Below are positions 33,219 through 38,033 of a stretch of DNA of 64,000 bases, in pieces (position 1 is the first letter of the stretch; each line of letters begins with the position of its first letter). The notes beneath the pieces were generated by a model. That model was not told the origin of the DNA. It ran no database searches and saw only the letters and a program-made list of their open reading frames with translations. Source of the DNA: Cycloclasticus sp. 46_120_T64. GTDB taxonomy: Bacteria > Pseudomonadota > Gammaproteobacteria > Methylococcales > Cycloclasticaceae. Position numbers and translations under genes: made by a program. The DNA lies in NCBI GenBank assembly GCA_002162695.1, contig MAAM01000005.1, positions 124,001 through 188,000 of the forward strand, given 5' to 3'.

Positions 33219-33653
33219 CTATAGGTATCGTTTTAACCAGGACTCGAACTGTGGCAGGCTCATCGCCCCCGCTTGTCGAGCGACTTCTTTGCCATTTTTC
33301 ATAATCAATAATGTCGGAATGCTTCTAATTTGAAAACGGGATGCTAATTTCTGCTGCCGCTCCGTATCCAGCTTTACAAACCGCGCGCTGGGTTCCAATT
33401 TTTTAGCCGCCGCATCAAAGGTGGCGGCAAACGACTTACACGGGCCACACCAAGCCGCCCAACAATCGACCACCAGCGGAATATCACTTTGTTCGAAATG
33501 ACGCTGAGCATTAGCCGCGGTTAAGGTCGCGGGTTTGCCAGCAAACAATTTTTTCTTACATTGCCCACACTTGCCTCCGGCCGCTAATTTATCCGCCGGT
33601 AGTTTATTAACGGCATCACAATGAGGACAAACGATTTTGATTGATTCAGACAT
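33219..33653 (-). CDS. trxC: Thioredoxin 2
   Basis: TrxC is a zinc-containing thioredoxin. Two CxxC pairs at the N-terminus (CPHCDAVN and CGQCKKKL) bind zinc, followed by a thioredoxin domain with the active site WAAWCGPCKSF and the cis-proline region IRSIPTLLIM. 144 residues. It is the last gene of a tight run with the GIY-YIG gene, sprT and the MipZ-like gene, 1 bp after the GIY-YIG stop. Confidence 0.95.
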   Translation of the reverse strand: MSESIKIVCPHCDAVNKLPADKLAAGGKCGQCKKKLFAGKPATLTAANAQRHFEQSDIPLVVDCWAAWCGPCKSFAATFDAAAKKLEPSARFVKLDTERQQKLASRFQIRSIPTLLIMKNGKEVARQAGAMSLPQFESWLKRYL

Positions 33654-33654
33654 A

Positions 33655-33906
33655 TTAAGTTGTTGAGTTTGTTATTAAGGCAAGCTTTGCAAGCCGCGAT
33701 AGTTTTTTAATTTGCGCTTCACGCACGCTAGCACTGCTGCGTGTATGGTTAGCTTCAGTAAACACAAAACGTAATGGGCGGCGGCCGTTGAAATACTTCG
33801 CGCCAGTACCATTTAGGTGCTGTTGGAAACGTCGTTCTAGGTCGGTGCTAATACCGGTATATAAGCTGTTATCACTGGCCTCAATAATATACACAAACCA
33901 GTTCAT
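33655..33906 (-). CDS. GIY-YIG nuclease-domain protein (UPF0213, YhbQ-like)
   Basis: 83 residues forming a lone GIY-YIG domain: WFVYIIEASDNSLYTGIS (the YIx..LYTG strand pair) and the LERRFQQHLNGTGAKYF helix with the conserved Arg. Such small proteins may nick or resolve branched DNA; the biological role is uncertain. It overlaps the sprT stop by four bases and is followed immediately by trxC. Confidence 0.88.
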   Translation of the reverse strand: MNWFVYIIEASDNSLYTGISTDLERRFQQHLNGTGAKYFNGRRPLRFVFTEANHTRSSASVREAQIKKLSRLAKLALITNSTT

Positions 33907-34415
33907 ACAATCATCAGGCGATCACCACACTGACGACAAGCGTATTGCGCCAAACCTCTGAGCATTTTGTTATGCCGCCTAATCCCCAATTCGTGCCGTT
34001 GACAACCGCAGGCATAGGCAATCGTCGAGTAGCGTCGCCGTGGAATAGCACTCAAATCATAACTCGCGGTGCGGCTAGCCTCGGCACCAAAGTCGGCCAT
34101 CACCGCCCGCCACTCTGGCCCATGCGGGCGAATCGACCGACGATCAAAACGCATATCGACGACATAATGCGCCACTTCATGCGGAATGGTACTGCTCACA
34201 TTATCATCAAAATACTTCGCAAACACTGCCGCGTTATAACGAATAGACCGTTGTTGCCGATGTCGCTTATACATGCCAATGGTGTGCCCCGTTAAATCGA
34301 ACCGAATATCAATCAACGGCCAACGAGCCCGATAGAGTTCGTTGGCTAATTCAATATAACGCGTGGTTTCTTCGACCACCTGGGTTTGTTGCGCCTGAGT
34401 TAATCGTACCAACAT
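33903..34415 (-). CDS. sprT: SprT-family zinc metalloprotein
   Basis: 170 residues. The zinc-binding HExxH appears as IPHEVAHYVVD with a downstream acidic helix, and the C-terminal CGCQRHELGI...CRQCGDRL holds four cysteines for a second zinc. SprT proteins resemble the SPRTN DNA-protein crosslink protease; the bacterial function is not settled. It starts right after the MipZ-like gene stop (adjacent bases) and overlaps the GIY-YIG gene by four bases. Confidence 0.93.
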   Translation of the reverse strand: MLVRLTQAQQTQVVEETTRYIELANELYRARWPLIDIRFDLTGHTIGMYKRHRQQRSIRYNAAVFAKYFDDNVSSTIPHEVAHYVVDMRFDRRSIRPHGPEWRAVMADFGAEASRTASYDLSAIPRRRYSTIAYACGCQRHELGIRRHNKMLRGLAQYACRQCGDRLMIV

Positions 34416-35207
34416 TTAGAACAAATTAAGGCTATCCAATAAAGAACGCACATCTTGTTTGGCGGCGACATTTGACAAGCTATTTGAATTATCTACATCC
34501 AAAATAGTTAAGCCACTGGGGAATAATTCTTTGTAAATAACCCGCTCGTACAAACCCGGCAAATAACGAAACATCACCCGTTTCTGCAACGCATCAAGCG
34601 CACCATGCACACGCTTATTATTCCTCGATCCCAAGGAGGCTAAACGATTGCGTACCACCACCCAGTCCATCGGTGGACGACCACTGGCGGCACGAAACTT
34701 ACGGCTATCCCAAACCATTTCACTGTAACAACTGAGTTTTTTCACCTGAAAATCGTTTGCGCTGACTTCACCTAGCAAATCCAAATCAACAAAACTGTCA
34801 TTTAAGGGGGTAATTAGGGTATCCGCTAGTGCGTGTGCCAAACGAGACAGGTAAGTATCATTCCCTGGGCAATCAACCACAATAAAGTCGGCAGTTTGCT
34901 TAAAACGGCTCAAGACCTTTTGAAAGTTTTGTTGGTCCTCAGTCTCACGATCTTGTATCGCACTAGCACTTGATGGTGCAATCACCATGCACTCCGGCAT
35001 CACGACCTCAGCGCCGCTGTTCGCCATATGGGCCTGTCTATTTTGCAGGTAACGGGCCACGCTTTTTTGCCGTGAATCCAAATCGATCACCGCAACTTTT
35101 TTCCCCGCATTCAATAAACAGACAATGATATGCATGGCCAGGGTTGACTTCCCTGTCCCGCCCTTTTCATTGCCAAAAACAATGATATGCGTCTCTTTTT
35201 TATCCAT
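34416..35207 (-). CDS. MipZ-like ParA-superfamily ATPase
   Basis: 263 residues. The deviant Walker A FGNEKGGTGKST is at residues 11-22, with the signature lysine and following P-loop lysine. AVIDLDSRQKSVARYLQNR and FIVVDCPGNDTYLSRLAH follow. PLNDSFVDLDLLG and MDWVVVRNRLASLGSRNNKR are, from memory, the blocks that mark MipZ of Caulobacter and other Alphaproteobacteria rather than Soj/ParA or MinD. In Caulobacter MipZ binds ParB and DNA and keeps FtsZ away from the poles. No parB or min gene lies nearby; instead sprT, a GIY-YIG gene and trxC follow without gaps. Confidence 0.82.
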   Translation of the reverse strand: MDKKETHIIVFGNEKGGTGKSTLAMHIIVCLLNAGKKVAVIDLDSRQKSVARYLQNRQAHMANSGAEVVMPECMVIAPSSASAIQDRETEDQQNFQKVLSRFKQTADFIVVDCPGNDTYLSRLAHALADTLITPLNDSFVDLDLLGEVSANDFQVKKLSCYSEMVWDSRKFRAASGRPPMDWVVVRNRLASLGSRNNKRVHGALDALQKRVMFRYLPGLYERVIYKELFPSGLTILDVDNSNSLSNVAAKQDVRSLLDSLNLF

Positions 35208-35230: not shown

Positions 35231-36430
35231 TTAAAGCGTCTCTAAATCGAATTCGACTAAGGGGTTAATCTCTTCGTCATAATTAACCGCCTCTAGGCTG
35301 AAACCAAACAAGTGCAAAAACTCTTTTTTATAGCCCGCGTAATCGGTTAGCTCGAATAAATTGTCGGTGGTCACTTGCGGCCAAATTTCACGACATTTTT
35401 GCTGAATGTCATCGCGTAATTCCCAATCATCCAAACGTAAACGGTTTGCCTCGTCGAGGTTTTTATCTGCGCCAGCGTTAAACAACTGGGTGCGGAATAA
35501 ACGGTTAATTTGTTCGATACAACCTTCATGCACGTTTTCTTCTTTCATCACTTTGAACGCCATCGAAATATATAAAGGCATCACCGGAATAGCTGAACTC
35601 GCCTGGGTAACCACCGACTTCAACACCGCAACGTTAGCACTGCCATTATTCGCCTTTAAATCGGCATCAATCGTATTCGCCGCACGATCAAGATCCATTT
35701 TCGCTTTGCCTAAGGCACCATCCCAATAAATCGGCCAAGTAATCGCGGTACCAATATAGCTATACGCCACCGACTGACAACCTTTCGCAAGTACACCCGC
35801 ATCCGCTAAGGCGCTCATCCAAAGCTCCCAATCCTGTCCACCCATCACGGTAACCGTATCGACAATTTCTTCTTCGGTCGCCGGCTCAACAGAGGCCTCG
35901 ATGATACGATCTTTATTGGTATCAATCGCGGTTGAGGTATAGGTTTCACCAATTGGTTTCAAACATGAACGAACCAAGGTGTCAGTTCCTGGAACTTTTC
36001 TTACCGGTGAGGCCAACGAATAAATAACCAAATCAACTTGACCCAAGTCCTCTTTGATTAACTCAATGGTTTTTTCCTTCGCTTCATTGGAAAACGCATC
36101 ACCGTTGACGTGTTTGGCGTACAAACCCGCTTGTTTAGCTTCGGCATCAAAAGCGGCGGTGTTATACCAACCCGCTGAGCCCGTTTTCTTTTCGGTTCCC
36201 GGCTTTTCAAAAAAAACGCCGATCGTCGCCGCACCCGAACCAAAGGCCGCGGTAATTCTAGATGACAGTCCATAACCACTCGAAGCGCCGATAATGAGCA
36301 CCTTCTTTGGGCCATTTTCAAGCGCGCCTTGTTGTTGGGTAATATTAATTTGTTGTTTTACATTCGCAGCGCAACCAACAGGGTGTGCGGTTGTACAAAT
36401 AAAGCCACGAATTTTTGGTTTAATAATCAT
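35231..36430 (-). CDS. fabV: Trans-2-enoyl-ACP/CoA reductase FabV
   Basis: FabV is the NADH-dependent enoyl reductase of the last elongation step in fatty-acid synthesis and is typically resistant to triclosan. The 399 residues start [20 protein letters not shown] and have [16 protein letters not shown] for cofactor binding. The Y-x8-K active site is [10 protein letters not shown]. It is a single gene, 23 bp upstream of the MipZ-like gene on the same strand. Confidence 0.97.
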
Positions 36431-37553: not shown

Positions 37554-38033
37554 TTAGGCACTCTTTTTTGCCGCTTGTTTCTTTAGTTCTTGCGCGATAT
37601 CAGCCGCCACTTCGACCTCACTAGCCAAAGGAATCTCATTATCATCTTGCCGGCTTGGTTCGTCATCGACAGGCGACTCGACAGCACCACCTTGCTCATC
37701 AGCCGTCACCGACTCAACTGTGCCAGCAGTTTCTGCTAATAAGGCCGTCTCGGATAAATCCGTCTGCAATGCCTTCGCCTCTTCAGAGCATAAATCACCC
37801 GCGCCATTGGCAATATGTCGGTACACATCACGATATTGCTCGGTTAAACCCTTAAGCAGCACCGCGCTATTCACGAAATGATCATCAACCTGTTTACGAT
37901 AGGCCTCATGCTCCGTTTCCAGTTTTTGTACCTTCTCGGCATCAACACCGTTCTTGTCTCGAGAAAACCACGACGACAAGGCAAAACCCAGCCCCAAACC
38001 GATTAACACACCGATCATTAACTCTATACCCAT
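37554..38033 (-). CDS. zapG: Z-ring-associated protein ZapG (YhcB, DUF1043)
   Basis: 159 residues: one N-terminal membrane anchor (GIELMIGVLIGLGLGFALS), then a coiled coil (residues ~35-100) containing LKGLTEQYRDVYRHIANGA, typical of DUF1043. The C-terminal half is acidic and disordered. YhcB/ZapG links the division ring, cell elongation and envelope synthesis in E. coli. A short hydrophobic ORF ends directly at its ATG (TAAATG). Confidence 0.88.
   Translation of the reverse strand: MGIELMIGVLIGLGLGFALSSWFSRDKNGVDAEKVQKLETEHEAYRKQVDDHFVNSAVLLKGLTEQYRDVYRHIANGAGDLCSEEAKALQTDLSETALLAETAGTVESVTADEQGGAVESPVDDEPSRQDDNEIPLASEVEVAADIAQELKKQAAKKSA

Follow-up and report, generated by a model that had tools for sequence, protein, structure and literature searches.

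A fixed MipZ orthologue that probably replaces MinCDE in division-site placement in the gammaproteobacterial genus Cycloclasticus

The window, which here means the whole stretch of 64,000 nucleotides that was analysed, comes from a genome of 2.21 Mb in 15 contigs, 99.97% complete, that belongs to the genus Cycloclasticus. It contains a run of genes on one strand (Table 1), one of which is an open reading frame that fills its interval entirely and is referred to as mipZ. The genes for FabV, MipZ, the SprT-like protein and the GIY-YIG domain protein were found in the same order in all 15 genus loci examined. The three neighbours were not found at mipZ in 11 loci from other families of the class (two of them being the same gene), nor in any of the 10 mipZ loci checked in alphaproteobacteria; the cluster distinguishes this locus from the latter. 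No cargo-type partner gene adjoins mipZ, whose GC content is 45.6% against 45.8% for the window. Two further arrangements were seen in passing: the order ZapG, (EamA), FabV, MipZ is repeated at many genus loci, and in a second family of the class a DUF2288 gene immediately precedes mipZ in both genera seen (loci L112 and L114; genomes G381 and G493).

Table 1. Genes of the mipZ region, in positions of the window.
Feature	Coordinates	Strand	Remarks
mipZ	34416..35207	-	263 aa; ATG start; stop included
fabV-type enoyl reductase	35231..36430	-	Upstream of mipZ, 23 bases before; order conserved in genus
SprT-like protein	33903..34415	-	Abuts the mipZ 3' end
GIY-YIG domain protein	33655..33906	-	Downstream neighbour of mipZ
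Thioredoxin with N-terminal zinc ribbon	33219..33653	-	Last gene of the same-strand run
ZapG-like (Z-ring associated protein G family) gene	37554..38033	-	2.3 kb upstream of mipZ, same strand; context only

The initial annotation had proposed, from four sequence blocks, that the product resembles MipZ rather than ParA, Soj or MinD. The blocks NEKGGTGKST, DLDSRQ, PLNDSFVDLDLLG and MDWVVVRNRLA are all present in the mipZ reading frame, and the proposal is borne out by profile score, tree and predicted fold alike. Against the Pfam family PF09140 (MipZ), the product scores 353.3 bits (9.6e-106), with residues 7-262 covering profile positions 1-260 of 262, while the second-best Pfam family, AAA_31, reaches 58.9 bits. 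The PF09140 gathering cut-off of 20.7 bits is exceeded in 14 out of 14 control genomes and separates nothing; seven further ParA-type ATPases of the Cycloclasticus genome exceed it too, with 26-40 bits. As this cut-off is too loose, MipZ was called at E <= 1e-40, a threshold at which Caulobacter alone is positive among the 14 control genomes. A search of NCBIfam with the product returned no family above its cut-off. Among solved structures the closest is Caulobacter MipZ (1.3e-71), to which the product is 47.7% identical over 264 columns, at full length, whereas identity to the chromosomal ParA of the same genome is 20.6% and extends over 170 columns only.

Two other identities were considered and rejected. 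The product scores 35.2 bits with the MinD model, for which the cut-off is 212.9, and the tree places it apart from the MinD sequences. With regard to a chromosomal or plasmid ParA, the NCBIfam ParA partition model gives 75.5 bits against a cut-off of 180, which the true ParA of the genome likewise fails to reach (115.6 bits), and the genome's parB is on a contig other than that of mipZ, adjacent to a parA of its own.

The family tree comprised 20 MipZ rows (the window protein, Caulobacter MipZ from PDB entry 2xj4, and rows from the class and from alphaproteobacteria), 3 ParA, 4 MinD and 6 other ATPases of the same genome. All 20 MipZ rows, including 2xj4 and the window protein, form a single clade (100/99), with ParA, MinD and the genome's own ATPases outside; the long branches that separate these groups drew a program warning, and profile score and fold are concordant with the tree. 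In a tree with full-length ParA, the split between MipZ and ParA is supported at 100/100. The phylogeny suggested in the initial annotation, where an orphan ParA clade was named as the competing placement, therefore puts the protein with Caulobacter MipZ and away from the six ParA-family ATPases of its own genome. The predicted monomer model (mean pLDDT 86.9) agrees: Foldseek matches it to 2xj4 at 2.3e-28, the next being ParF/ParA at 2.9e-11, and VIA-align superposes it on a chain of the MipZ dimer 2xj9 with a Z of 32.9 and an rmsd of 1.8 over 251 residues, the next family, ParF, reaching 22.2. As far as the model goes, neither ParA nor MinD comes close to solved MipZ as a match for the predicted fold. 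By profile, identity, tree and predicted fold, the gene is a genuine mipZ. ParA-like ATPases do serve many positioning jobs and several are encoded in this genome, so that an orphan ATPase positioning some other cargo (chemoreceptors, flagella, carboxysomes or a plasmid), unrelated to division, deserves consideration; it is nevertheless very improbable, as tree, profile score and fold all give MipZ, away from ParA, MinD and orphan ParAs, and as mipZ has no cargo-type partner beside it.

At E <= 1e-40, mipZ is present in 16 of the 18 genus genomes, in a single copy each, and in all 10 with a completeness of 90% or more and a contamination of 5% or less. No MipZ was found in the remaining two, G010 and G012, which are 83% and 73% complete, respectively. 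Two single-contig genomes of the genus, G001 and G006, carry the gene, and mipZ is a fixed single-copy gene in Cycloclasticus. Of 295 confirmed relatives, 80 loci were kept, 12 of them from the genus clade (71-80% identity) and one from another gammaproteobacterium (57%), the remaining 67 being at most 49% identical; the alphaproteobacterial rows among the 80 are likewise at most 49% identical to the window protein. Carriers of MipZ are otherwise mostly alphaproteobacteria, both in the phylum sample and according to reviews, which raises the question of alphaproteobacterial DNA misassembled or misbinned into a gammaproteobacterial genome. Such an artefact is refuted in practice by the synteny of the 15 genus loci, and the single-contig genomes, the matching GC content and the distance from the alphaproteobacterial rows also speak against it; we regard its probability as negligible.

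MinE was found in none of the 18 genus genomes and MinC (MinC_C) in none of the four tested, G001 and G006 included, while none of the seven further ParA-type ATPases encoded in the window's genome reaches the MinD cut-off (best 116 bits against 212.9). Within a sample of 251 genomes from the order, MinE occurs in 220 and MipZ in 18, namely 16 of the genus and two of one other family. None of the 18 MipZ genomes has MinE, compared with 220 of the 233 others, an exclusion with a Fisher p of 1.6e-19 that is uncorrected for shared ancestry and is based on two families. Thirteen genomes of the order sample have neither MinE nor MipZ. As parts of the Min system were not found and MipZ is fixed, midcell is probably located by another, chromosome-linked method in this genus.

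No such exclusion is supported for the class. In a sample of 369 genomes drawn evenly from it, MinC was detected in 157. The count is two of 10 for the MipZ genomes and 155 of 359 for the rest (p 0.20), so that a class-wide exclusion of Min by MipZ is statistically unsupported; the relation falls short of significance because MinC is missing from many class genomes. For the same reason, the premise of the initial annotation that gammaproteobacteria normally use MinCDE proves too broad for the class, although it holds within the order on the MinE count. The MinC count also raises the question of how the division site is placed in class genomes without MinC. Among MipZ genomes, MinC occurs in two of 14 (G394 and G482), and MinE in one of 10 from outside the genus (G394). 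In G394, minC, minD and minE are consecutive and MipZ is encoded in the same genome, so the presence of one system does not preclude the other. The minC of G482 (L203, G482:C513) has both domains, with no minD or minE in its 3.3 kb locus and no MinE match in the genome; it may represent a relic, or else a mistake in binning. A statement that genomes with MipZ lack MinCD has been made for alphaproteobacteria (PMC3910319, in the excerpts available).

The partners that a MipZ system would need are encoded elsewhere in the window's genome. The order mnmG-rsmG-parA-parB-atp, in which the names mnmG, rsmG and atp were read from translations, lies on a different contig from mipZ, and ftsZ is on the same contig as parA-parB. 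Within the fetched stretches and the window, where parS was sought, a perfect 16-base parS (TGTTTCACGTGAAACA) is located 16.7 kb upstream of parA. ParB (TIGR00180) was found in 13 of the 14 MipZ-bearing class genomes tested, the exception being G381, and FtsZ in all 10 MipZ-bearing genomes tested. The check for minCDE and parB that had been proposed from the sequence of the locus is hence favourable: neither MinE nor MinC was found, none of the ATPases scores above the MinD cut-off, and the genome has parA, parB, parS and ftsZ. Besides the normal FtsZ, a 315-aa protein at L217:1824-2768 (G000:C3:66949-67194) gives an FtsZ C-terminal match of 25.9 bits, against a cut-off of 27, and is possibly a divergent FtsZ-like protein.

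Taken together, it is likely that in this Cycloclasticus-type gammaproteobacterium a MipZ orthologue, instead of MinCDE, places the division site, inhibiting FtsZ by way of a gradient anchored by ParB. In Caulobacter, ParB recruits MipZ monomers, and MipZ in dimer form attaches to the nucleoid and blocks FtsZ (PMC3355305, in the excerpts available). With the mechanism carried over from there, MipZ would be a P-loop ATPase that forms dimers and inhibits FtsZ. Near the origin, ParB on parS would recruit MipZ monomers and promote the formation of ATP-bound dimers. These would attach to the DNA around the origins without sequence specificity and would disassemble FtsZ; as ATP is slowly hydrolysed, monomers would return to ParB, and the Z ring would form at the MipZ minimum, between the segregated origins. 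For the Cycloclasticus-type protein, it is from this parallel that we infer binding to ParB and to DNA, inhibition of FtsZ and the formation of a gradient. The MipZ of Rhodobacter sphaeroides is essential and binds ParB, according to the available text of PMC6315104. As the parts list equals that of Caulobacter and the R. sphaeroides protein binds ParB, MipZ is held to couple origin position to FtsZ inhibition here as well.

At the level of residues, K13, G14, K18 and D42 of Caulobacter MipZ are described as critical in the ATP cycle (PMC3355305, available excerpts). All four are identical in the window protein (K15, G16, K20 and D44) and invariant in it and in 82 other gamma- and alphaproteobacterial rows counted. 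Moreover, the window protein retains 40 of the 42 columns in which MipZ is conserved to 95% or more. The DNA-binding residues of Caulobacter MipZ have been listed as R194, R196, K197, R198, R219, R221, L237, R242 and L248 (PMC7229837, as far as the available text goes). Five of these nine are kept (R194, K197, R198, R221 and L248), three are replaced (R196N, R219Y and L237V) and R242 falls in a gap; furthermore, the loop preceding the last helix is shorter than in Caulobacter MipZ in the alignment. Such differences would suit a protein that is a true MipZ by descent with an altered action, serving either as a septal regulator at midcell together with FtsZ or as a division inhibitor that is no longer cued by ParB. 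In R. sphaeroides, MipZ has been reported to oscillate and to form a midcell ring, not a gradient (PMC6315104, available text). Yet the protein keeps every catalytic residue, the genome has all of the ParABS partners, and the changed DNA-binding positions are mostly variable among alphaproteobacterial MipZ as well (57 alphaproteobacterial-side rows), and we consider a changed action rather unlikely. Within a ParB-linked role for MipZ, the mode might be either a gradient as in Caulobacter or a midcell ring as in R. sphaeroides.

Beyond the genus, MipZ was found in 10 of the 369 class genomes, from seven families, and in 94 of 398 genomes sampled across the phylum, all outside the class except the window's own. 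Six phylum genomes outside the class (G753, G761, G798, G814, G853 and G980) have two MipZ-like genes each, the second being more divergent. A MipZ tree without an outgroup was built leaving out L149, L150, L178, L180, L181, L182 and L183 (second copies, a fragment and long branches), together with the ParA rows and seven rows of the genus that were near-duplicates; for a tree with full-length ParA as outgroup, further alphaproteobacterial and genus rows were dropped. The first groups 17 class MipZ from six families in a starred clade (99/92), with G482 beside it without firm placement and G604 among Sphingomonadales (98/93). In the second, the main class clade is at 93/90 and not starred, and the link between G604 and Sphingomonadales is not recovered. 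One origin for all class MipZ does not appear in the best tree and is not rejected (AU p 0.107). Since most class MipZ fall in one clade, one entry into the class followed by spread is suggested as the simplest reading, several origins being possible too; transfer from alphaproteobacteria is plausible. In a tree of ParA, ParB and FtsZ, used as a proxy for the species tree, the genus joins the order's other MipZ family at only 88/89, and therefore one and two entries into the order are indistinguishable. It is conceivable, though we place it just short of probable, that the Cycloclasticus lineage swapped Min for MipZ once and permanently, that a related MipZ lineage spread through other gammaproteobacterial families, and that G394 and G482 represent intermediate states. 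Should that be the case, an oscillator bound to the membrane and a gradient bound to the nucleoid would be interchangeable within one bacterial class.

The open-access literature searched, which mostly leaves out subscription journals, yielded no report of MipZ in Cycloclasticus and, in the texts as available, no description of it in any gammaproteobacterium. An automatic name for such genes may already exist in protein databases. One candidate report of MipZ in a gammaproteobacterium, PMC5122684, was rejected, the text match being the accession MIPZ00000000, and Xanthomonas citri is said to have no obvious MipZ in the available part of PMC5515816. The host group consists of oil-degrading gammaproteobacteria that carry a division-site protein described from alphaproteobacteria. 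A genus with fixed MipZ inside an order that mostly carries MinE offers a natural comparison, which allows asking what else changes when a ParB-anchored gradient replaces Min, and whether the native ParB and FtsZ have adapted.

With regard to known systems, the window protein shares the ATPase superfamily of MinD, and MinCDE likely does the same cellular job, whereas its score and its place in the tree separate it from MinD itself. Chromosomal ParA (Soj) belongs to the same superfamily and likewise has ParB as a partner, but in this genome it is encoded separately, next to ParB, and it belongs to a clade apart from MipZ. In reviews, MipZ is presented as the alphaproteobacterial answer to a missing Min system (PMC3910319 and PMC7022226, in the excerpts available). 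The R. sphaeroides protein, reported to be 44% identical to that of Caulobacter (PMC6315104, available text), stands at a similar distance from it as the window protein does, and differs from the Caulobacter gradient in its reported midcell ring. The closest parallel is Caulobacter crescentus MipZ (PF09140; PDB 2xj4, 2xj9 and 2xit), which the window protein resembles in full-length homology, fold and catalytic residues, as well as in a genome with ParB, parS and FtsZ and with no MinC or MinE found; it is unlike it in its gammaproteobacterial host, its partly different DNA-binding patch and its shorter loop before the last helix.
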